64,000 nt of DNA, taken from assembly GCF_000231405.2 (NCBI RefSeq), contig NZ_CP007032.1, forward strand, positions 1,116,001 to 1,180,000. Reading direction: 5' to 3'. Source of the stretch: Desulfitobacterium metallireducens DSM 15288. GTDB taxonomy: Bacteria; Bacillota; Desulfitobacteriia; Desulfitobacteriales; Desulfitobacteriaceae. Shown in pieces: positions 1,156 through 20,775 of this stretch (its first letter is position 1; each line of letters opens with the position of its first letter). The notes beneath the pieces were generated by a model, which saw only the letters and a list, made by a program, of their open reading frames with translations, made no database searches and was not told where the DNA came from. The position numbers were made by a program, and so were the translations under genes.

Positions 1156-1176
1156 TAGTAAGAATTAAATATCTGG

Positions 1177-1340
1177 ACATGAGTGATTTTTCCTGAGGGA
1201 AAAATTTAAAAGGGAAGTTAGTGCAAGCTAACGCGGTACCCGCCACTGTAAGAGGGAGTTAACTTACATAGTGTCACTGGGGATATACCTGGGAAGACGT
1301 AAGTTGATGAAGATCTTGAGCCAGGAGACCTGCTCATACC
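1177..1340 (+). ncRNA. Cobalamin (B12) riboswitch
   Basis: The conserved blocks of the adenosylcobalamin aptamer appear in order: GGGAAGTTAGTG, then the B12 box region GCGGTACCCGCCACTGTAAG (1232-1251), GTCACTGG, CCTGGGAAGACG, GATGA and AGCCAGGAGACCTGC. ATGAG at 1179-1183 can pair with CTCAT at 1333-1337 to close P1. The aptamer precedes a terminator hairpin and a cobalt uptake operon, the usual target: B12 binding is expected to switch transcription off. Confidence 0.95.
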
Positions 1341-1424
1341 AAACATTACGACTACCTACGGGATGTTAGGAAGGTGAATGCTTGTGTCTGCGGTTTTCGT
1401 ACCGGATACTAGTTATGAACTCTG

Positions 1425-6533: not shown

Positions 6534-6869
6534 CTATGTAAATACAAACTGAACTAGAGCCATGTAAAGTAGAGTTCCTCCTCCAATACTCAGGAGAACG
6601 TTATTTTTCCAAAGGTGAACCAGGACAATGCAGGCAATGGCAATCCCTTCGGGAAGACCATAAGGGGTAGAAATAAGAGACACGTTTTTTAAGCAGTAAA
6701 TAATCAGTAAACCAATTGAGGCAAAGGGGAGAACATTTCCCAGATAGAGAACGAATTTAGGGGTATCCCGGTTAGCAGGAAAGAGGAAGAAGGGCATTGC
6801 TCTCGTTAAAAAAGTGCCGAAGGCAATGGTGGCGATTAAGATGAGTGACTGTTGGATGGTAAGTAACAT
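6534..6869 (-). CDS. azlD: Branched-chain amino acid exporter small subunit AzlD
   Basis: This 111-residue, almost wholly hydrophobic protein has about four membrane helices. The conserved N-terminal pattern ATIAFGTFLTRAMPFFLF is typical of AzlD. AzlD and AzlC (LIV-E family) form a two-component exporter of branched-chain amino acids and analogues. GGAGG lies 7 bases before ATG 6869 (minus strand). It overlaps azlC by 34 bases and is the last gene of lrp-azlC-azlD. Confidence 0.9.
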   Translation of the reverse strand: MLLTIQQSLILIATIAFGTFLTRAMPFFLFPANRDTPKFVLYLGNVLPFASIGLLIIYCLKNVSLISTPYGLPEGIAIACIVLVHLWKNNVLLSIGGGTLLYMALVQFVFT

Positions 6870-7564
6870 TTCTCTGCCTCCTTCTCAAATGGTTTCCTGT
6901 AAAAGCCTAAGGTAATAAGAATCAGACCCATTGCAGGAATAATGAAGTTTTGAGCGCCAAAAATCAATAAACATATGACCGAGGCGCTAATACCAATCAA
7001 GGCAGGAGCATGATGCTTTTGGGATTTCCACTGGTTAATAAAAATAACAACGAATAACGCAGTCATTACAAAATCGATCCCTTTCGTGTTAAAGGAGACT
7101 AATGATCCTAATATACCTCCAAGCGCACAAGCAGTAATCCAATAAGAGTGGTTGAGAAAGGTGACAAAGAACATAAACCATCCCTTATCGATTTCTGCTG
7201 GAGTTTCAGTTGCACAGAGAATGGAAAAAGTTTCATCAGTAAGTCCAAACATAAGATAAAGCTTTTTTTTGCCAGCTTCATTGTATTTTCCTAAAAGAGA
7301 TAGTCCATAAAATAAATGTCTGGCATTAACCATCAGAGTCATAAAAAAGGCGTTCAGTGGATCAAAGGCCACAGTTAGTAGCTCAATGGCAACATATTGC
7401 ATTGATCCGGCAAAAATAATGATACTCATGAAAATGGCCCATTTAAAGGAATAGCCTTTACTGTTTAGAAGTATCCCAAAGGCCATTCCCAGAAATAGAT
7501 ATCCGGTCATCACAGGAAGGGTATAGGGAAAGGCTGCTTTTAAGGCTTTTATCTGTTCCTGCAT
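6836..7564 (-). CDS. azlC: Branched-chain amino acid exporter large subunit AzlC
   Basis: This 242-residue membrane protein is the larger part of the AzlCD exporter. Family features are the first helix PVMTGYLFLGMAFGILL, FAGSMQYVAIELL, the MVNARHLFYGLSLL block and LTDETFSI. I chose ATG 7564 (minus), ten bases after GGAG; a TTG at 7579 overlaps that ribosome site. It follows an Lrp-type gene after 54 bases, the classical arrangement in which Lrp-like AzlB controls azlCD. Confidence 0.92.
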   Translation of the reverse strand: MQEQIKALKAAFPYTLPVMTGYLFLGMAFGILLNSKGYSFKWAIFMSIIIFAGSMQYVAIELLTVAFDPLNAFFMTLMVNARHLFYGLSLLGKYNEAGKKKLYLMFGLTDETFSILCATETPAEIDKGWFMFFVTFLNHSYWITACALGGILGSLVSFNTKGIDFVMTALFVVIFINQWKSQKHHAPALIGISASVICLLIFGAQNFIIPAMGLILITLGFYRKPFEKEAEKCYLPSNSHSS

Positions 7565-7618
7565 TGTCACGTTCTCCAATCGTTTTTTATCATCTATATC
7601 TATGCGATCATTAAATAG

Positions 7619-8095
7619 TCACTCTTCATCAAGGGGAATAGATAAGGTTCTTTTTTCAGTCTGCATAACGATACTTGTTTCCACACGGTTTACGCCAGGT
7701 ATAGCCATAAGATAATCGATGATAAAATCCCTGTAAGTAGACATATCTTTGGCCACCACTTTTAAGAGATAGTCCTGACCGCCCGTAATCGTATAGCACT
7801 CAAGTACGTTTGGAGTTTCATTAATCTTTTGCACGAAGGAATTTGCAATCTCACGGTTAAGAGGAGATAAACTCACCATTGTAAAGGCAAGCGTCTCTAT
7901 GCCTAGCTTTTTTTCATCTACAAATGCTGTAAAACGCTGGATGACTCGTAATTCTCGTAAGTTCTTGGTTCGGGCAAGGCAAGCCGAAGGGGACAATCCA
8001 ATGGATTTGGATAGCACGAGGTTCGAGATCGATGAATCCTCTTGGAGTGCATGAATTATTGCTTTGTCATAATGATCAAGGGTTATGTTCATCAT
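7619..8095 (-). CDS. Lrp/AsnC family transcriptional regulator
   Basis: This 158-residue protein has an N-terminal helix-turn-helix (about residues 6-60, LDHYDKAIIHALQEDS and LSKSIGLSPSACLARTKNL) and a C-terminal ligand-sensing RAM domain (about 70-150, with VLECYTITGGQDYLLKV and PGVNRVETSIVM). The start is one of two adjacent ATGs (8095 or 8092) behind AAAGGCG. It probably controls itself and azlCD in response to an amino acid, by analogy with AzlB. An inverted repeat overlaps its own promoter. Confidence 0.92.
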   Translation of the reverse strand: MMNITLDHYDKAIIHALQEDSSISNLVLSKSIGLSPSACLARTKNLRELRVIQRFTAFVDEKKLGIETLAFTMVSLSPLNREIANSFVQKINETPNVLECYTITGGQDYLLKVVAKDMSTYRDFIIDYLMAIPGVNRVETSIVMQTEKRTLSIPLDEE

Positions 8096-10448: not shown

Positions 10449-10500
10449 AATAAGCTCCTCCAATCCACCTTGTATAAACACTTGTATTTGTATAGTGGAC

Positions 10501-10529
10501 ATTATAGTATGAAAGAGGGCGTTTTACAA
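10501..10529 (-). promoter_or_regulatory. Promoter of hom-thrB
   Basis: On the minus strand TTGTAA (10529-10524) and a perfect TATAAT (10506-10501) are spaced by 17 bases. Transcription would start near 10494. Confidence 0.75.
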
Positions 10530-10567
10530 GAGTGATGAATAAATTTTAACTTTAGTGGAATAATGGG

Positions 10568-10596
10568 TTGACACTCTAAGCTGTAGCATATACACT
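10568..10596 (+). promoter_or_regulatory. Promoter of the ilv-leu operon
   Basis: A perfect -35 TTGACA (10568-10573) is followed after 17 bases by TACACT (10591-10596). It diverges from the hom promoter and lies about 50 bases before the leader RNA. Confidence 0.65.
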
Positions 10597-10647
10597 AACA
10601 ATAATAAATCAATGTATTATAACACGATACAAATCATGATAACACGA

Positions 10648-10750
10648 AGGAAGTGTACCTAGGGTTCCGGGGTAATCCTGTCTGGACCGAGCGGTACAGA
10701 AGTCCAGTGAATTGGACTTACACCGTGGGTAGAAAAAGCCCGAGCGGAAA
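10648..10750 (+). ncRNA. ykkC-family riboswitch, probably subtype 2a (ppGpp)
   Basis: The ykkC core is clear: ACCTAGGGTTCCGG, TCTGGACCGAGCGG, then ACACCGTGGG with AAAAAGCCCGAGCGG. GTGTA (10653-10657) can pair with TACAC (10719-10723); AGTCCA/TGGACT forms a hairpin; GGG/CCC closes the 3' helix. Guanidine-binding members carry ACGG/ACGA after the P1 strand; here it reads ACCG, which argues for subtype 2. Subtype 2a RNAs bind ppGpp and, from published work, often precede branched-chain amino acid genes, exactly as here. A terminator follows, so ligand binding probably permits read-through into ilvD. The exact ligand is inferred. Confidence 0.82.
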
Positions 10751-10786
10751 GTTCCTATGTCTGGAACTTTTGCTCTGGTTTTTTAT
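10742..10786 (+). terminator. Intrinsic terminator of the ilv leader RNA
   Basis: GAGCGGAAAGTTCC (10742-10755) pairs with GGAACTTTTGCTC (10763-10775) and is followed by a T run. Its 5' arm overlaps the 3' end of the aptamer, giving a direct switch between ligand-bound and terminated forms. Confidence 0.85.
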
Positions 10787-10990
10787 TTTATTTAAATAAT
10801 AATTATAATTAAGATTTATACTTTCTAGGTATTATTATATGAAGTAACAGAGGAAGGGGTTGAATAATTAAAAATATCCTTAAATTAAATTAGATAACAT
10901 ACCATGTCGATGATGTGGCAACTAGGTTATAATTAAACTAGTTTAGATGAAATAAGATATATTAATAATTGGAGAAAAGAGGAATAGCCA

Positions 10991-12679
10991 ATGAATAGTG
11001 ACATTATTAAACAAGGTGTAGATCGAGCTCCTCATCGGTCTTTGCTGAAAGCGTTGGGTTTAACTGATCGGGAAATTAAAAATCCGTTTATCGGTGTGGT
11101 TAGCTCTTTTACCGAGATGGTGCCAGGGCATATGCATTTAAGACAAGTTGCAGAGGCTGTAAAAGCAGGAATCCGTGCAAATGGGGGAACCCCTTTTGAA
11201 TTCTCAACCGTTGCGGTCTGTGATGGTTTAGCGATGGGACATGTGGGAATGCATTTTTCACTGGCCAGTCGTGAGTTGATTGCTGATTCCATTGAAGTGA
11301 TGGCGAAAGCGCATCAATTGGATGCCTTAGTCTTGATTCCGAGCTGTGATAAGGTTGTTCCGGGGATGATGATGGCGGCAATGCGCCTTAATCTGCCGGC
11401 GATCGTAGTGAGTGGCGGACCAATGTTACCGGGGCATTTTGAAGGAAAACCTGTTACACTAAGCACTGTTTTTGAAGCGGTAGGGCAGGTCCATGCGGGT
11501 AAAAAGGATGAAGAATGGCTTTATGACTTGGAATCCAAAGCATGTCCTACCTGTGGTTCATGTGCAGGTATGTTTACGGCAAATTCAATGAACTGTCTAA
11601 CTGAGGCTTTAGGGCTTGCCTTACCGGGGAATGGCACGATTCCAGCCGTTTATTCTGAACGGTTAATTTTAGCGAAAGAAACTGGTTATCAAGTGATGGA
11701 GCTTCTGCGAAAGAATATTAGACCTAGGGATATCGTGACGAAGACATCACTTAAAAACGGGGTTGCTCTCGATATGGCCTTGGGCTGCTCGACGAACACT
11801 ATCCTTCATTTGCCAGCCATTGCGAATGAAGGAGATATCGATTGGGATCTTCGCAACGTTAATGAAGTGAGTGCTACAACTCCTCAAATTTGCAAACTAG
11901 CTCCTGCGGGGGATAACGTTCTCGCAGACTTGAATGAAGCAGGTGGAGTGAGTGCTGTCTTAAAACAACTTTTAGATAATGGGTTCATTGATGGAACTCC
12001 GATGACGGTTTCCGGGGTCAGTCAAGCTGAACGCTTAAAGAATTATAAAGTACAAAACGCTGAAGTTATTCATCCCATGGATCACCCTTATAGTGTCCAA
12101 GGGGGATTGAAAGTCCTCTTTGGTAATCTTGCTCCCGAAGGGGCAGTTATTAAACAAGGGGCCTTAGACAATCAAGAAATGGTTTTTGAGGGTACTGCAA
12201 AAGTGTTTAATGGTGAAGTTCCAGCGGCTGAGGCCATTCGTAATCGTGAAATCAAAGCCGGTGATGTTGTGGTCATTCGTTATGAAGGGCCTAAGGGAGG
12301 ACCGGGAATGCGAGAAATGCTCGGACCTACAGCAACCTTAGCAGGAATGGGTTTAGACGCTTCTGTTGCTCTAATTACGGACGGACGCTTCTCAGGTGCC
12401 AGCAGAGGTTTATCTATCGGTCATTGTTCTCCTGAAGCTGCACTTGGCGGAGAAATTGCTCTTCTGAAGACAGGAGATAAGATTCGTATTGATTTAAAAG
12501 AAGGACGCCTTAATTGGGTAGCTTCTGATGAAGAAAGAAAAATGCGACGTGAGCAATATGAACAGAATCCGCTTCCGTTGGAAAACTTAAACCCCGAATT
12601 AAGAGCAGGGTATCTGGGCCGATATTCGGAATATGTACAATCAGCATCACGGGGGGCATCTTTTAGACGAACAACATAG
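10991..12679 (+). CDS. ilvD: Dihydroxy-acid dehydratase
   Basis: This 562-residue Fe-S dehydratase makes the 2-oxo acids that precede valine and isoleucine. Cluster-ligand motifs are visible: LIPSCDKVVPGM (about residue 118) and CPTCGSCAGMFTANSMNCL (about residue 190). It also shows GCSTNTILHLPA and the C-terminal DGRFSGASRGLSIGH signature. Length is normal. It is the first gene after the ykkC-type leader, and about 200 untranslated bases separate the terminator from its ATG. About 30 bases before ilvB. Confidence 0.97.
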   Translation: MNSDIIKQGVDRAPHRSLLKALGLTDREIKNPFIGVVSSFTEMVPGHMHLRQVAEAVKAGIRANGGTPFEFSTVAVCDGLAMGHVGMHFSLASRELIADSIEVMAKAHQLDALVLIPSCDKVVPGMMMAAMRLNLPAIVVSGGPMLPGHFEGKPVTLSTVFEAVGQVHAGKKDEEWLYDLESKACPTCGSCAGMFTANSMNCLTEALGLALPGNGTIPAVYSERLILAKETGYQVMELLRKNIRPRDIVTKTSLKNGVALDMALGCSTNTILHLPAIANEGDIDWDLRNVNEVSATTPQICKLAPAGDNVLADLNEAGGVSAVLKQLLDNGFIDGTPMTVSGVSQAERLKNYKVQNAEVIHPMDHPYSVQGGLKVLFGNLAPEGAVIKQGALDNQEMVFEGTAKVFNGEVPAAEAIRNREIKAGDVVVIRYEGPKGGPGMREMLGPTATLAGMGLDASVALITDGRFSGASRGLSIGHCSPEAALGGEIALLKTGDKIRIDLKEGRLNWVASDEERKMRREQYEQNPLPLENLNPELRAGYLGRYSEYVQSASRGASFRRTT

Positions 12680-12709
12680 AGAAGAAGAGGAGAAGAGGAG
12701 GAGAGGCGA

Positions 12710-14422
12710 ATGGGTAAAGGTAAAGCAAAAGAGCAAGAGCAAGCACTTGTTAAGGTTAGTGGTGCTGAACTCTTACTAAATTCTTTGGTTAAAGAAGGCG
12801 TAAAAGTTATCTTTGGGTATCCGGGAGGTACGGTGTTATCAATTTATGATGCCCTTCTTCATTCCCCAATTCGCCACATTTTACCTCGACATGAGCAAGC
12901 AGCTGTTCACGCTGCTGATGCCTATGCTCGGGTCAGTGGGGAAGTCGGCGTATGCTTGGGAACTTCTGGACCCGGTGCGACAAATTTAGTGACAGGTATT
13001 GCCACAGCTTATATGGACTCAATTCCTATGGTAATCTTAACGGGACAGGTTCAGACTACGCTACTGGGAACAGATTCGTTTCAGGAAGTAGATATATCAG
13101 GGATTACGATTCCAATTACTAAGCACTCCTATATAGTTAAAGATGCCAGTCAAATTCCTCGCATTGTTAAAGAAGCATTTTATATTGCGCGTACGGGACG
13201 TCCTGGGCCAGTACTCATTGATCTACCGAAGGATATCCAAGCGGCTTTTGTCGAACCTACATCAGATGACCTGAAACTTAAAAGCTATAAGTTTTTCAGT
13301 AAGGGGAATGCGGGACAGATCGAAGAAGCAGCTCGTGTTTTGGCTGAATGTGAACGCCCAATCTTGTATGCCGGTGGAGGGGTAATTAGCTCTGGTGCGG
13401 GAGAAATTCTTCGCAAGATCGTTGAGAAAGGAAACCTTCCGGTTGTAACTACGCTGATGGGAATGGGCAGTTTACCTACGACTCATCCCAATCTTCTCGG
13501 TATGGTGGGAATGCATGGTACTGTGTCAGCAAATTACGCAGTCAATGATTGTGATTTGCTCATTGCGGTAGGTGTGCGTTTTGACGATCGTGTCACGAGC
13601 GGGTTAGGTCACAAATTTGCCACTAAAGCAAAGATTATTCATATTGATATCGATCCGGCTGAAATTGGAAAAGTCGTCAAGACCCATATTCCGATTGTCG
13701 GTGATGCACGGAATGTGCTTGAAGATTTGTCCAAGCATTTGGTTCCACCCCAGATCGATACTTGGTGGAAACAAATCCGCGAGTGGCAAAAGGAACAAGT
13801 ATCAAGGCAAGAATCGTATGAAAATACACATCAGTTAACGCCACAAGACGTCATTCGCATTCTCGGAGAAAAAGCAGACCCACAAGCCATTGTCACGACA
13901 GATGTTGGACAGCATCAAATGTGGGCGGCACAATATTATCCAGTTTCCCAACCACGACGTTTTATTACGAGTGGAGGATTAGGAGCGATGGGCTTTGGTT
14001 TGCCTGCGGCGATTGGCGCACAAGTAGCTGACCCAGACGCCCAGGTCTTCCTGATTACAGGGGATGGCTCTTTCCAAATGTGTATTCAGGAATTAGCAAC
14101 AACAGTGCAATGTAAACTCCCTATTAAAATTATTTTGCTGAATAACGGAGTTTTAGGAATGGTTCGGCAATTGCAGAAGCTCTTCTATGATGAACGTTAT
14201 AGCCAGATTCAACTGAGGGATAATCCGGACTTTATCAAAGTCGCGGAGGCTTACCATATTCTCGGAATTCGGGTTACATGTTTGGACGAAGTAGAGTCAG
14301 CATTTGATAAAGCCATCGCTTATGATGGGCCAGTGCTTATCGACTTTACCATTTCTGAAGACGAACTCGTTTTCCCGATGGTTCCTTCAGGAAATGAACT
14401 AACCGATATGATAGGGAGGTGA
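12710..14422 (+). CDS. ilvB: Acetolactate synthase large subunit
   Basis: This 570-residue thiamine-diphosphate enzyme joins pyruvate units (or pyruvate and 2-oxobutyrate) in the first common step to valine, leucine and isoleucine. It shows the catalytic-Glu segment LPRHEQAAVHAADAYAR, the FAD-domain middle part, and the ThDP motif GDGSFQMCIQELAT running to LLNN (about residues 455-485). A ribosome site rich in GAGG precedes ATG 12710. Its end overlaps the region before ilvN, so the two subunits are translated together. Confidence 0.96.
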   Translation: MGKGKAKEQEQALVKVSGAELLLNSLVKEGVKVIFGYPGGTVLSIYDALLHSPIRHILPRHEQAAVHAADAYARVSGEVGVCLGTSGPGATNLVTGIATAYMDSIPMVILTGQVQTTLLGTDSFQEVDISGITIPITKHSYIVKDASQIPRIVKEAFYIARTGRPGPVLIDLPKDIQAAFVEPTSDDLKLKSYKFFSKGNAGQIEEAARVLAECERPILYAGGGVISSGAGEILRKIVEKGNLPVVTTLMGMGSLPTTHPNLLGMVGMHGTVSANYAVNDCDLLIAVGVRFDDRVTSGLGHKFATKAKIIHIDIDPAEIGKVVKTHIPIVGDARNVLEDLSKHLVPPQIDTWWKQIREWQKEQVSRQESYENTHQLTPQDVIRILGEKADPQAIVTTDVGQHQMWAAQYYPVSQPRRFITSGGLGAMGFGLPAAIGAQVADPDAQVFLITGDGSFQMCIQELATTVQCKLPIKIILLNNGVLGMVRQLQKLFYDERYSQIQLRDNPDFIKVAEAYHILGIRVTCLDEVESAFDKAIAYDGPVLIDFTISEDELVFPMVPSGNELTDMIGR

Positions 14423-14427
14423 GGCGT

Positions 14428-14907
14428 ATGTTGCATACTTTAGCCGTACTTGTAGAGAATAACCCGGGTGTTTTAACACGGGTTTCTGGGCTTTTTGCTC
14501 GACGGGCTTATAATATCAATAGCCTTTCCGTTTGTCAGACAGAAGACCCCGGTATTTCTCGGATGACCATTATGGTTGACGGAGATGACGCGGTGATTGA
14601 ACAAGTCACGAAACAATTGATTAAATTGGTTGTCGTTCATAAAGTTACAGATCTAACAGAGGAACAGATTGTCGATCGTGAACTCGCTCTTGTAAGGGTC
14701 AAGGTTAAGCCGGATACACGTCTTGAAATTCTTCAAATCGTAGATGTCTTTCGCGGTCGCGTTGTCGACATGGGTAGAACTAATGTGACTGTAGAACTTA
14801 CCGGTGATGCTGAAAAAATTGATGCATTCGTTCGTACGATTCGACCGTTTGGGTTGATGGAACTTGTTCGAACAGGTAATATAGCAATTACACGCCTCGA
14901 CAGTTAA
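14428..14907 (+). CDS. ilvN: Acetolactate synthase small (regulatory) subunit
   Basis: This 159-residue protein has an N-terminal ACT domain (LAVLVENNPGVLTRVSGLFA, RRAYNINSLSV) that binds valine for feedback control, and the standard C-terminal half with RELALVRVKV and FRGRVVDMG. I place the start at ATG 14428 behind GGGAGGTGA (14414-14422); GTG 14419 would lie inside that ribosome site. It follows ilvB with a 5-base gap. Confidence 0.95.
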   Translation: MLHTLAVLVENNPGVLTRVSGLFARRAYNINSLSVCQTEDPGISRMTIMVDGDDAVIEQVTKQLIKLVVVHKVTDLTEEQIVDRELALVRVKVKPDTRLEILQIVDVFRGRVVDMGRTNVTVELTGDAEKIDAFVRTIRPFGLMELVRTGNIAITRLDS

Positions 14908-14981
14908 TAATTGACTATCCTTACATTTTAATTCAGATAGAAAAAGGATAAGAAAGCAAAATTAAAGGAGAGATAATAATC

Positions 14982-15977
14982 ATGGCAAAAATGTATTATG
15001 ATTCAGATGCAAATTTAGAAGTACTCGCAAAGAAAACGATTGCGATTATGGGTTACGGAAGTCAAGGACATGCACATGCTCAAAATCTTCATGACTCAGG
15101 ATTAGACGTTATCGTTGGTCTACGCGAAGGCTCTCGTCGGTGGAAACAAGCTGAAGAAGCAGGATTAAAAGTTATGACTGTTTCTCAAGCTGCTGAAAAA
15201 GCGGATGTAGTCATGATACTCCTTCCAGATGAAAAACAAGCTGAAGTTTATGATACCCAAATCAAACAATATATGACCCCTGGTAAAGCTCTTGCCTTTG
15301 CACACGGTTTCAATATTCATTTTGGACAAATCATTCCTTCAAGTGATATTGATGTCTTCATGATTGCTCCAAAGGGCCCAGGGCATATGGTTCGCAGAAC
15401 TTATGAAGAAGGTGCTGGAGTTCCTTGCTTGATCGCAGTTCATCAAGATGCTACGGGTAAAGCGCATGACATAGGAATGGCTTATGCCAAAGGAATCGGT
15501 GGTACACGAGGCGGAGTTTTGCAAACAACCTTTAAAGAAGAGACTGAAACCGACCTCTTTGGTGAACAAGCTGTTCTTTGCGGTGGAGTTACCGAACTGA
15601 TGAAAGCCGGCTTTGAAACTTTGGTTAATGCGGGTTATCAACCAGAAAGCGCTTATTTTGAGTGTCTACATGAAATGAAATTGATTGTAGATTTAATCAA
15701 TGAAGGTGGATTTGGCTGGATGCGTTATTCCATTTCCGATACGGCTCAATATGGAGACCAAATGATCGGTAAACGGATTATTACAGATGAAACTCGTAAG
15801 GAAATGAAGAAAGTTCTCGAAGAAATTCAAGATGGAACCTTCGCCAAGAATTGGTTAATGGAAAACAAAGTAGGTCGTCCTCAATTCAATGCTATTGCCC
15901 GTCGCGAACAAGAGCATCAACTCGAAAAAGTCGGTGCTGAAATTCGTAGCATGATGCCTTGGTTGAAAAAACACTAA
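14982..15977 (+). CDS. ilvC: Ketol-acid reductoisomerase (class I)
   Basis: This 331-residue NADPH enzyme isomerises and reduces acetolactate. The N-terminal Rossmann motif [13 protein letters not shown] and GLREGSRRW (phosphate-binding residues), the metal-binding segment with [15 protein letters not shown], and [12 protein letters not shown] are all present. Length is that of the short class I form. AAAGGAGAG precedes ATG 14982. It continues the operon after a 74-base gap. Confidence 0.97.
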
Positions 15978-16056
15978 TATTTCTTATTAAGAATATGAAT
16001 AAACGGAGCTGTAAGTCTTTAAAATAGCGTATAAAAACATAGTATGGTCTCAAGAA

Positions 16057-16087
16057 CTTCAGGTGGAGTCTAAAACTCCGCCTGAAG
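16057..16087. repeat. Hairpin between ilvC and leuA
   Basis: CTTCAGGTGGAGT and ACTCCGCCTGAAG form a 13-bp stem with one G-T pair and a 5-base loop. The following sequence has only a weak T run, so it may be an mRNA-processing or weak attenuating hairpin inside the operon. Confidence 0.5.
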
Positions 16088-16140
16088 TCAATTTCTATAT
16101 TTAGGGAGTATCTCAAGTCTAGAGGTGAGGAGGTTCATAT

Positions 16141-17670
16141 ATGCGCCAAATCGATATTTTTGATACGACATTAAGGGATGGAGAGCAATCTCCGGGTGTG
16201 GCCTTAAATCCTGGTGAAAAAGTGCAGATCGCTCGGCAACTCGCAAAGCTAGGTGTCAATGTTATTGAAGCCGGATTTCCTATCGCTTCGCCAGGAGATT
16301 TTGAAGCGGTTAAACGAATAGCAGAGGAGGTCCGTCAAGTTTCAATCTGTGCTTTGGCGAGAACCCAAGCGCAAGATATTGAGAGAGCTTGGGAAGCAAT
16401 TTTAAAGGCGGAAAGCCCGAGGATTCATACATTTATCGCAACTTCTCCGATTCATATGCAGTATAAATTGAAGAAATCTCCTGACGCTGTGTTGGAACAA
16501 GCGGTGGCTGGGGTTAAACTGGCAAAATCCAAGGTAGCAGACATTGAATTTAGCGCAGAGGATGCTTCACGCAGTGATGTCGATTTTCTGGGGCGCGTAT
16601 TCTCTGCAGCGATTAAGGCAGGCGCAACCGTGCTCAATATTCCAGATACGGTCGGATATGCAACACCGGATGAATTTGCTCAGTTCCTTAGGGCTGTTAT
16701 GGAACGTACGGAGGGTATTGAGAAGGTCAAGGTTAGTGTGCACTGCCATAATGACTTAGGGTTAGCGGTTGCTAATTCGCTAGTTGCTGTTCAAGCAGGG
16801 GTTCATCAGCTTGAAGGTGCTATCAATGGAATTGGTGAACGTGCAGGAAATGCAGCTGTCGAAGAGCTTGCAATGGCTTTAAAGACGCGACGTGATCAAT
16901 ATCAAGTTGAAACGACGATCAACAGTAAAGAAATTGCGCGCACCAGTCAAATGGTAAGTCGGTTGACAGGGATGATAGTTCAGCCGAATAAGGCAATTGT
17001 CGGAAAAAATGCCTTTGCACATGAGTCGGGGATCCATCAAGATGGCGTTTTAAAAGAACGCTCAACGTATGAGATTATGTCTCCGGATTCGATTGGTCTA
17101 GATATGGATACCATCGTTCTAGGCAAACATTCAGGACGACATGCTGTGCGGGAACGACTAACTGAATTGGGACTCGAAGTTGATGAGGCACGTATGGATG
17201 AAGTCTTTAAGGAATTTAAACTTTTAGCAGAACGGAAAAAAGAGGTGACATCTGCGGATTTGTTTTCCTTGGTTGACACACATGTACATGATGTTCCTGA
17301 AATCACCTTAGAATACTTGCAAGTTTCCAGCGGTACTCAAATTGTACCTACCTCAACTTTAGGATTGAATTATAAAGGTCAGCGCTTTGAGGATGCAGCT
17401 TGCGGAGATGGTCCTGTGGATGCGGCTTATAAAGCGATTGATAAAATCTTAGGAATAGATCATAAACTCCTTCGTTACGCTCTTCAAGCGATCGATGGAG
17501 GTGAAGATGCTCAAGGGGAAGTCACCATCAGCGTTCAGTTTAATGAACATACTGTTGGTGGACGCGGCGTAAGTACGGATATCATTGAATCCAGTATTAA
17601 AGCCTATATCCAAGCTGTTAATCGGGCGTCTGAACGAGGCTGGATTTCTATTAAGATCGGGGGTAATTGA
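16141..17670 (+). CDS. leuA: 2-isopropylmalate synthase
   Basis: This 509-residue enzyme condenses acetyl-CoA with 2-oxoisovalerate, the entry to leucine. The TIM-barrel part shows [16 protein letters not shown], the metal-binding [13 protein letters not shown] and [13 protein letters not shown]. The C-terminal part (about 370-505) is the LeuA dimer/regulatory domain for leucine feedback. GAGGAGGT before ATG 16141 sets the start. leuC begins 4 bases after its stop. Confidence 0.96.
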
Positions 17671-17674
17671 AACA

Positions 17675-18940
17675 GTGGGTATGACAATTACAGAAAAAAT
17701 CTTAGCTGATCATGCCGGACTTACGGAAGTTGTTCCAGGACAATTAATTACAGGAAAGCTTGATCTTGCACTAGCAAATGATATTACCGGTCCAGTAGCG
17801 ATTCAAGAATTTGCAAAGTTTGAAACGGATAAAGTGTGGGATCCGGCAAAGGTTGCTTTGGTTCCCGATCATTTTACCCCAAACAAAGATATTGCCTCAG
17901 CAGAATTGAGTAAATCCTTGCGCGTGTTTGCCAAAAATCAAAAAATTGTGCATTACTGGGAACAAGGACGAGTAGGGATTGAACATTGCCTTCTTCCTGA
18001 ACAAGGGGTAACGCTTCCTGGAGATGTTATCATTGGTGCAGATTCACACACCTGTACTTATGGAGCACTGGGTGCTTTCGCTACGGGTGTAGGTAGCACT
18101 GACTTAGCAGCTGGATTGGCAACAGGCGAAGCTTGGTTTCGCGTTCCGGAATCGATAAAATTTATATTTAAGGGTCAAAACTTTCAACCTTGGGTTGGAG
18201 GGAAAGACCTGATTCTTTATACCATTGGCAAGATTGGTGTTGATGGCGCTCGGTACAAGGCGATGGAATTCTCTGGAGAGGGAATTGCGGCTCTGTCAAT
18301 GGATAATCGTTTCACAATTTGTAATATGGCTATTGAAGCTGGGGCGAAGAATGGAATTATCGTCGCGGATGAGAAGACGCTCGCTTATGTGAAGGAGCGT
18401 GCCCAACGTCCGTTTAAGGTCTATGAAAGCGATCCTGATGCACAATACTCAGAGGTATTTGAATTTAATGTTGCTGATATTCCGCTCCAAGTAGCATTCC
18501 CTCATCTGCCAGAGAATTCGAAAGCCGTTGAAGAAGCACGCGGAATAAAGATCGACCAAGTCGTTATTGGTTCTTGTACGAATGGACGGCTGGAAGATCT
18601 GAGGATTGCAGCCGAAATTTTACGTGGGAAGAGCGTTCATCCTGATGTTCGTCTCATCGTAATTCCAGGGACGCAAAATATTTATAAGCAAGCCATGAAG
18701 GAAGGATTAATCGACATCTTTATTGATGCCGGAGCGGTTGTGAGTACTCCGACTTGTGGACCTTGTCTTGGTGGATATATGGGGATCCTTGCCAAGGGCG
18801 AGCGTGCCTTGTCGACGACGAACCGTAATTTTGTGGGTCGGATGGGACATCCCGAAAGTGAAGTTTATCTTTCTGGCCCAGCAGTTGCTGCAGCATCCGC
18901 TGTTAAAGGCGAAATTGTACATCCACAGGAGGTGGCGTAA
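17675..18940 (+). CDS. leuC: 3-isopropylmalate dehydratase large subunit
   Basis: This 421-residue aconitase-type subunit carries the [4Fe-4S] ligands in [14 protein letters not shown] and [10 protein letters not shown], plus [20 protein letters not shown]. Its length is that of the shorter homoaconitase-like LeuC found in clostridia and archaea rather than the 466-residue enterobacterial form. Start GTG 17675 lies 10 bases after GGGGGT; ATG 17681 is an alternative. The frame is open upstream inside leuA, but those residues are not family-like. It overlaps leuD by one base. Confidence 0.95.
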
Positions 18941-19428
18941 TGAGTAAGGCATGGAGATTTGGCGATGATGTGGATACAGATGTCATCATTCCAGCACGCT
19001 ATCTGAATCAAACCTCACCTGAACATCTAGCCGCACACTGCATGGAAGATGCAGATACTCATTTTGCTCAGGCAGTTAAGGTTGGGGATGTTATAGTTGG
19101 TGGCAAAAACTTTGGATGTGGATCGTCTCGCGAGCATGCTCCTTTAGCCATTAAATCCGCAGGAGTTCAAGTAGTAATAGCAGAATCGTTCGCTCGGATT
19201 TTTTATCGGAATTCATTAAACATTGGGCTTCCTATTCTTGAATGTCCAGAAGCAGTACAGGGTATTCAAGCGGGAGATGATGTTTCTGTAAATCTATCAA
19301 CGGGTGAAATTCAAAATATAACTCGGGGAGCGAGTTACCAAGCACGCCCTTTTCCACCATTTATGCAAGAGTTGATTAAAGCGGGTGGACTTATTCCTTA
19401 TGTGAAAGGACGGAAGAACAATGCCTAA
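18940..19428 (+). CDS. leuD: 3-isopropylmalate dehydratase small subunit
   Basis: This 162-residue subunit completes the isopropylmalate isomerase. It shows [34 protein letters not shown] and [15 protein letters not shown], all standard for the swivel domain. Its ATG overlaps the leuC stop (TAATG), and its end overlaps leuB by 8 bases. Confidence 0.96.
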
Positions 19429-20479
19429 AATTGCAGTACTACCTGGAGATGGTATCGGACAAGAAATCATTCCTGAGGCAGTTAAAGTTTTAAAGACTGT
19501 CTTGGCGAATTCTCCGGAAGACTTCGAGTTTAAAGAGTATTGGGTTGGCGGTACCGCTATCGATAAATGTGGAAAAGCTTTACCTGAGGAAACCTTAAAA
19601 GGCTGCGAAGAAGCAGATGCTGTTCTGCTCGGTGCAGTAGGCGGACCGAAGTGGGATCACCTTCCTGCTGCAGAGCGCCCAGAAACAGCAGCTCTACTTG
19701 GCTTAAGAAAAGGGCTAGAGTTCTACGCCAATATTCGCCCTGTTAAAATGTTAGTAAGTTTGATTGATTCTTCAACACTAAAAAAAGAAATAGTGGAGAA
19801 CGTTGATATGGTTGTCATTCGGGAACTTACGGGAGGCGTTTATTTTGGGGAGAAGAAGAGAATTGATAATCCTCTCTCCGCTTATGACATGATGTCTTAT
19901 TCTGCTCCTGAAATTGAGCGGATTGTCCGTTTAGCTTTCGAAATCGCTCAAAATCGCCGGAAAAAAGTGTGTTCGGTTGATAAAGCGAATGTCCTCGAAA
20001 CCTCGCGTCTCTGGAGAGAGATTGCAATCAAAGTCTCGAAAGATTTCCCAGAAGTAGAGCTATCCCATTTGTATGTTGATAATGCGGCAATGCAACTCGT
20101 TCGTTATCCCGAGCAGTTTGACGTTATTGTTACGGAGAATATGTTTGGAGATATCCTTACTGACTTAGCTTCAATGTTAGGTGGTTCGATTGGAATGTTG
20201 TCTTCAGCAAGCATGAATGGTAAAAAGGGAATGTATGAACCCGCTCACGGCTCGGCACCAGATATTGCCGGTAAGAATCTTGCTAATCCTTTAGCTACGA
20301 TTCTATCTGCAGCTTTAATGCTGAGAAATACATTTGGACTTGAGGAAGAAGCACAAAAGATCGAAGCAGCGGTTACTAAAGTTCTCGCTCAAGGCTATCG
20401 AACGGCGGATCTTGCTCGTCCAGGGGATAAACGTATGGGGACAAAGGAAATGGGTGATGCCGTAGTCGCAGCACTGTAA
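19421..20479 (+). CDS. leuB: 3-isopropylmalate dehydrogenase
   Basis: This 352-residue NAD enzyme oxidises and decarboxylates 3-isopropylmalate. Motifs are the start [26 protein letters not shown], the catalytic VDKANVL region, [16 protein letters not shown] and [18 protein letters not shown]. Length is normal. It is the last gene of the ilv-leu operon, and the next transcript-related element is the proline T-box leader. Confidence 0.97.
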
Positions 20480-20552
20480 AAAGGTTAACTTCAAGAAGCA
20501 GTGGATAATTGAATCTAGTTATGGTAATATAAGGTTAATTTAAATAACATTA

Positions 20553-20775
20553 AAATGCTGATGAACGACCTAAACGGTCTACTAGTTGCTTTTAGAAGAG
20601 AGAGTGGCGGATGCTGAGAGCTACTTAGGGCACAGGCCGAAACCCAGTCGTGAAGTGCTGATGCTAAATCAGACGGCTCCCACCGTTAATGGGCTAAAGT
20701 TGGCATAAGCAATTAAGGTGGTACCGCGGAAGGTTACTTTCGTCCTTGTAAAGAGGATGAAAGTAACCTTTTTGA
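20553..20775 (+). ncRNA. T-box leader, probable proline specifier, before proCBA
   Basis: The T-box AAGGTGGTACCGCGG (20715-20729) is followed by a terminator whose arms are 20730-20746 and 20753-20773. AGAGAG and the GATGCTGAGAG apical region lie in Stem I. ACGAC (20565-20569) can pair with GTCGT (20647-20651) to close Stem I. Just inside it on the 3' side is CCC followed by A (20643-20646), a proline codon in the place expected for the specifier. Uncharged tRNA-Pro should favour the antiterminator and switch on proCBA. The T-box is certain, the specifier is inferred. Confidence 0.93.
20730..20774 (+). terminator. T-box-controlled terminator
   Basis: AAGGTTACTTTCGTCCT and AGGATGAAAGTAACCTT form a long stem followed by T residues. 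The 5' arm directly follows the T-box sequence, so antiterminator and terminator compete. Confidence 0.9.

Follow-up and report, generated by a model that had tools for sequence, protein, structure and literature searches.

A probable ppGpp riboswitch of ykkC subtype 2a in the leader of an ilv-leu gene cluster of Desulfitobacterium metallireducens

Introduction

Riboswitches for ppGpp were described in 2018 and are associated with branched-chain amino acid (BCAA) genes (PMC5912903, PMC7266159). The closest described system is the ilvE leader of Desulfitobacterium hafniense (Sherlock et al. 2018; PMC12373219), a (p)ppGpp riboswitch which acts through a terminator and binds ppGpp and pppGpp equally well in vitro; its reporter activity in B. 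subtilis requires (p)ppGpp synthesis as well as the riboswitch sequence (PMC12373219). At position 49, guanidine-I RNAs of the ykkC family carry an A, whereas ppGpp and PRPP aptamers carry a pyrimidine (PMC6031431). In PRPP aptamers C75 pairs with a conserved G96; the exchange G96A is by itself enough to shift specificity to ppGpp, 40,000-fold, and the guanine of the ligand then takes over the pairing with C75 (PMC6031431). T-box leaders of BCAA operons are likewise ON-type terminator leaders of the same pathway, sometimes found in tandem with ppGpp riboswitches (PMC9481103). We analysed a stretch of 64,000 nt, hereafter the window, from the genome of D. metallireducens DSM 15288 (NZ_CP007032.1, positions 1,116,001 to 1,180,000, forward strand). 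The genome consists of a single contig of 3.18 Mb and belongs to the same family as the Desulfosporosinus genomes found in our search.

Results

A complete aptamer of the ykkC family lies at window positions 10648-10756 (+), as judged from sequence, Rfam alignment and folding, and is composed of the following elements.

10648-10652 (+): P0 5' strand, AGGAA, pairs with 10752-10756
10654-10698 (+): P1 with internal-loop arm (P1a/P1b), UGUACC / GGUACA, contains CUAGGGUUCCG and GACCGAGC (Rfam alignment, alignment A1)
10700-10719 (+): P2 hairpin, AAGUCCA / UGGACUU (Rfam alignment, folding)
10720-10751 (+): P3 and ligand pocket, GGG 10727-10729 / CCC 10739-10741 (alignments A1, A2)
10752-10756 (+): P0 3' strand, UUCCU (folding)

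In crystal numbering, A10652 and G10653 correspond to A5 and G6, and G10691 and C10692 to G48 and C49. The pocket residues are assigned by alignment, with their roles taken from PMC6031431: C10721 is the equivalent of C75 and lies within a conserved ACACCG, C10723 is C77, and A10743 occupies position 96. GGAAGTGT is invariant in 36 BCAA-context relatives, a count to be read with the caveat that GGAAGTG belonged to the search and extraction pattern. P0, an extra helix between the 5' and 3' ends that links the aptamer to the expression platform, forms when the aptamer-only transcript is folded. The 151-nt leader folds at -57.4 kcal/mol, compared with -41.3 +/- 4.1 kcal/mol for its shuffles (z -3.95). 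Just 5' of the aptamer, at 10618-10648, there is a short duplication consisting of two copies of ATAACACGA, which most relatives do not have.

The guanidine-I family RF00442 aligns full-length to 10648-10748 (+) with 52.5 bits (E 1.8e-6 over the 64-kb window). This alignment bears out the ykkC core that the initial annotation had read in the leader, with its three helices (P1, P2, P3 with CUAGGGUUCCG), and the coordinates given there for the element, 10648-10786, are correct. The curated gathering cut-off of RF00442 is 63 bits; at the gathering threshold Rfam yielded no match in the ilv leader and no ppGpp or PRPP model among its results, and covariance models labelled by genomic context were therefore built. 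Model R1 was derived from 36 ykkC RNAs preceding BCAA genes in other genomes (alignment A1). Model R2 was derived from 15 purine-type leaders (alignment A2): 12 belong to the purB group, two precede a purine-permease-like and a purL-like gene, respectively, and the last has no downstream gene that could be read. Neither model included the window RNA or the second ykkC RNA found in this genome. Scoring against subtype models, which the initial annotation had suggested as a check, placed the window RNA at 108.8 bits with R1 (E 3e-32), twice the 54.6 bits obtained with R2, and below the cut-off of the guanidine-I model. The second ykkC RNA of the genome served as an internal control and gave the reverse order (R1 64.2, R2 98.8), while guanidine-I controls scored 32.6-44 with R1 and 31-33 with R2. 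The two models do not separate all purine-type RNAs, one of which (L155) scores 59.7 and 53.6, and the evidence at the level of single bases therefore also matters.

Across 74 genomes of the same taxonomic order, a search returned guanidine-I RNAs above the cut-off, at 77-95 bits, and a second cloud at about 33-56 bits, most of which falls into three groups when the sequences are read with their downstream genes (named from translations and BLAST to the window proteins, not from family models). In the first group, which includes the window RNA, the leaders precede ilvE (branched-chain aminotransferase) operons and read CCC-RA-GCGG-AAAG-UUCC; those of the second stand before purB and related genes and read CCC-AG-GCGGGUAGG-UUUC; those of the third stand before citramalate synthase (cimA) and have a variant P3. 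When public genomes were scanned for the 5' element, 101 stretches with named records were obtained, many of which precede ilvE-(ilvD)-ilvB-ilvN-ilvC, several with additional leu genes, in Desulfosporosinus, Desulfofundulus, Desulfoscipio, Desulfotruncus, Carboxydocella and others; dozens of relatives carry a ppGpp-type ykkC RNA before ilv(-leu) operons. As a separate observation, genomes of one genus (g4) have a variant subtype-2 ykkC RNA (ACACCGUGUGGGAAAAAAGCCCCGUGGCAAGUUCUU) before a citramalate-synthase-like gene (L017, L020, L026, L029-L031, L035, L037-L042, L045 and others), whose P3 and position-96 region is unlike both the ppGpp and the PRPP consensus; L026 is nearer to the BCAA model (79.6 versus 43.1 bits).

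The subtype-defining bases of the window RNA point in the same direction as the scores. Position 49 is a pyrimidine (C10692), and the base that separates ppGpp from PRPP aptamers, whose inspection had also been proposed, is A10743 and hence ppGpp-type; among the BCAA-set leaders, labelled by downstream gene, the junction could be read in 47, and 42 of these likewise have A at position 96. The class consensus used here was drawn from PMC6031431, PMC5912903 and our own alignments. The 3' stretch of the pocket, GCGG-AAAG, is 1 nt shorter than in many other members, which have AUAGG, and offers a single G (10751) where the class has two contacts to the 5'-beta-phosphate/5'-pyrophosphate, G104/G105. 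Since nearly all ilvE leaders of the same family have the short AAAG form, it appears to be tolerated. The shortened pocket could nevertheless be taken to indicate another subtype-2 ligand, such as the nucleoside diphosphates of subtype 2c or the ligand of the orphan subtype 2d, or to mean that pppGpp or pGpp is preferred to ppGpp; natural aptamers are reported to differ in whether they favour pppGpp or ppGpp (PMC12373219). We consider this very unlikely: the models scored were guanidine-I, the BCAA-context R1 and the purine-context R2, but context and consensus match the BCAA group throughout, and the other subtypes accompany nucleotide hydrolases and transporters (PMC7266159).

A PRPP riboswitch (subtype 2b) is less probable still. 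It would share the scaffold, P0 and the ON-type antitermination design with the window RNA, and the class is present in the same genome (L002); however, PRPP riboswitches are distinguished by G96, by the 3' end CCCAGGCGGGUAGGUUUC and by purine genes or nucleobase permeases downstream, whereas the window RNA has A at position 96, reaches only half of its BCAA-context score with the PRPP-context model and is accompanied by neither a purine gene nor a tandem guanine aptamer. All purB-context leaders of the same order read CCCAG before GCGG, i.e. G96, under a pattern that leaves this base free; this reading was used in place of the G96 count from the purine-set extraction, which was discarded because its pattern already demanded G. 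The second ykkC RNA (G000:C1:2933196-2933290, minus strand) lies directly behind a purine riboswitch (79.8 bits), and purine riboswitch, PRPP-type ykkC aptamer and terminator together span G000:C1:2933196-2933390 (L002, L105), which corresponds to the known tandem guanine-PRPP layout. This tandem precedes an NCS2-type nucleobase permease-like gene; the tandems of relatives precede pur genes.

The assignment to guanidine-I (subtype 1) is barely tenable. RF00442 is the best and only Rfam match of the aptamer, and the P1-P3 core and CUAGGGUUCCG are common to both; yet the score stays below the cut-off and far from the 77-95 bits of the true guanidine-I RNAs of relatives, the downstream genes are unrelated to guanidine, and guanidine-I RNAs lack P0. 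The guanidine-specific bases are altered, with CCGAG-C for CCGAG-A (C10692) and ACACCG for CACGGA (10720-10725), so that both A49 and the ACGG element of guanidine-I are absent; the change in the ACGR element had been correctly noticed from the outset.

The aptamer is followed by a putative switchable terminator, as the initial annotation had described.

10733-10784 (+): intrinsic terminator, 21 bp; 5' arm 10733-10755, loop 10756-10762, 3' arm 10763-10784, U-rich tail to 10788

The hairpin alone has -25.7 kcal/mol. Its 5' arm contains the 3' strands of P3 and P0, aptamer and terminator are mutually exclusive, and the predicted terminators capture both strands in 47/47 readable BCAA-context leaders, the window included. 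For the full transcript the terminator fold (-55.4 kcal/mol) is favoured over the best P0-containing fold (-42.8 kcal/mol), whereas the minimum fold of a transcript ending before the terminator 3' arm has P0, P1, P2 and P3 (-40.3 kcal/mol). The ligand would therefore need to hold P0/P3 only until the polymerase has passed, and such holding of the aptamer for long enough has been shown for another ppGpp riboswitch (PMC10687018). That the hairpin is a mere strong attenuator or constitutive terminator behind a degenerate aptamer would fit its advantage of more than 12 kcal/mol at equilibrium, but is scarcely credible given that every helix of the class and nearly every invariant base are intact (108.8 bits) and that the strand overlap is conserved in all 47 leaders.

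Downstream of the riboswitch candidate, NCBIfam models confirm the eight genes ilvDBNC-leuACDB of the initial annotation in order and strand, at 10991-20479 (+).

10991-12679 (+): ilvD, dihydroxy-acid dehydratase
12710-14422 (+): ilvB, acetolactate synthase large subunit
14419-14907 (+): ilvN, acetolactate synthase small subunit
14982-15977 (+): ilvC, ketol-acid reductoisomerase
16141-17670 (+): leuA, 2-isopropylmalate synthase
17663-18940 (+): leuC, isopropylmalate dehydratase large subunit (domain begins near 17681)
18940-19428 (+): leuD, isopropylmalate dehydratase small subunit
19421-20479 (+): leuB, 3-isopropylmalate dehydrogenase

The score of leuD is slightly below the equivalog cut-off and above the cut-off of the LeuD/DmdB subfamily. 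We infer co-transcription of all eight genes. The 163-nt gap between ilvC and leuA contains a 14-bp hairpin with a weak T-tract (16056-16088), a possible internal terminator or attenuator that may partly separate leu from ilv expression. The earlier statement that the whole valine-isoleucine-leucine pathway is placed under this RNA is too strong, because the threonine deaminase gene ilvA (415 aa, near 627 kb of G000:C1) and the only PF01063 aminotransferase gene, ilvE (355 aa, near 832.5 kb of G000:C1), lie elsewhere, and the only other ykkC match of the genome adjoins neither of them.

A T-box in the ilv leader, whether as the only element or as a tandem partner of the aptamer, was considered and rejected: there is no RF00230 match near 10500-11000, and 18 T-box matches occur elsewhere in the genome. 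Between leuB and proC, a T-box leader at 20552-20772 (RF00230 83.2 bits, below the cut-off of 93) probably has the specifier CCC (proline), read from GAAACCC, which fits the downstream proC. Elsewhere in the window, genes named by eye as azlD-like, azlC-like and Lrp/AsnC-type regulator-like (6534-8095, minus strand) would form a BCAA export set near the ilv cluster, adjoining genes that resemble thrB and hom, likewise named by eye and on the minus strand, and a cobalamin riboswitch (RF00174, 109.6 bits) is found at 1164-1351 (+).

Upstream of the aptamer, the promoter region has conserved features of its own.

10568-10596 (+): likely promoter, TTGACA, 17 nt, TACACT (scan, 10/12 matches)

The promoter overlaps an operator-like inverted repeat, TGTAGCATATACA (10582-10594). 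Among 34 related ilv leaders, TTGACA is found in all 34, the inverted repeat TGTATCATATACA is exact in 24 and present with at most one mismatch in 29, and TGTATTATAACA, within the 10568-10624 region, is found in all 34 with at most two mismatches; the spacing from TTGACA to the repeat varies between genera while the repeat persists. In the window the palindrome has no second copy with at most two mismatches, and a genome-wide regulon is unsupported, with 10 near-matches versus 16 for a reversed control pattern. Since the promoter region carries this family-conserved repeat, the RNA may not be the sole control of the cluster. It is conceivable, though we rate it as rather doubtful, that a transcription factor devoted to ilv-leu uses the repeat as its operator and that control thus has two layers, of which the riboswitch is the second. 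If this were true, initiation would sense one signal and read-through would sense ppGpp.

Discussion

We propose, with a probability of roughly nine in ten, that the ilvD leader carries a riboswitch of ykkC subtype 2a which senses ppGpp and works as an ON switch. The scores, A10743 and the conserved expression platform support the subtype 2a reading of the initial annotation as far as sequence allows. The RNA shares with the D. hafniense ilvE riboswitch the scaffold, the pyrimidine at position 49, A96, P0, the shared-strand terminator and the association with BCAA genes, a likeness judged through the ilvE leaders of the same family rather than from the D. hafniense sequence itself; it differs in that the first gene is ilvD, not ilvE, and that the terminator lies about 205 nt upstream of it.

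Control by antitermination in the ON direction is likely, given the architecture, the behaviour of tested relatives and the fact that in every readable leader both the P3 and the P0 strand are sequestered by the predicted terminator. In the proposed mechanism, RNA polymerase would start at the promoter near 10568-10596 and transcribe the aptamer. Without ligand, 10763-10784 would capture the P0/P3 3' strand at 10733-10755, and the resulting terminator would stop transcription before ilvD. Upon amino-acid starvation, the RelA/SpoT-type enzyme, of which the genome encodes one homologue (856 bits), would make (p)ppGpp, the guanine of ppGpp would pair with C10721 in the space left by the absent G96, and the ligand would stabilise P3 and P0, thereby blocking the terminator and allowing read-through into ilvDBNC-leuACDB.

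The class is already known and has been demonstrated in close relatives, and the copy in the window is a further example where the class is expected, so that it confirms rather than extends the knowledge of ppGpp riboswitches. It is nonetheless a useful genome annotation, because Rfam 15 is without a subtype model and misses the RNA at its default threshold. The same genome contains a ppGpp-type RNA and a tandem purine-PRPP switch, two related elements with a difference at one key base and with different metabolic associations. If the ligand binds as proposed, this locus would illustrate cleanly how an mRNA leader can sense an alarmone directly in front of a cluster of eight biosynthetic genes.
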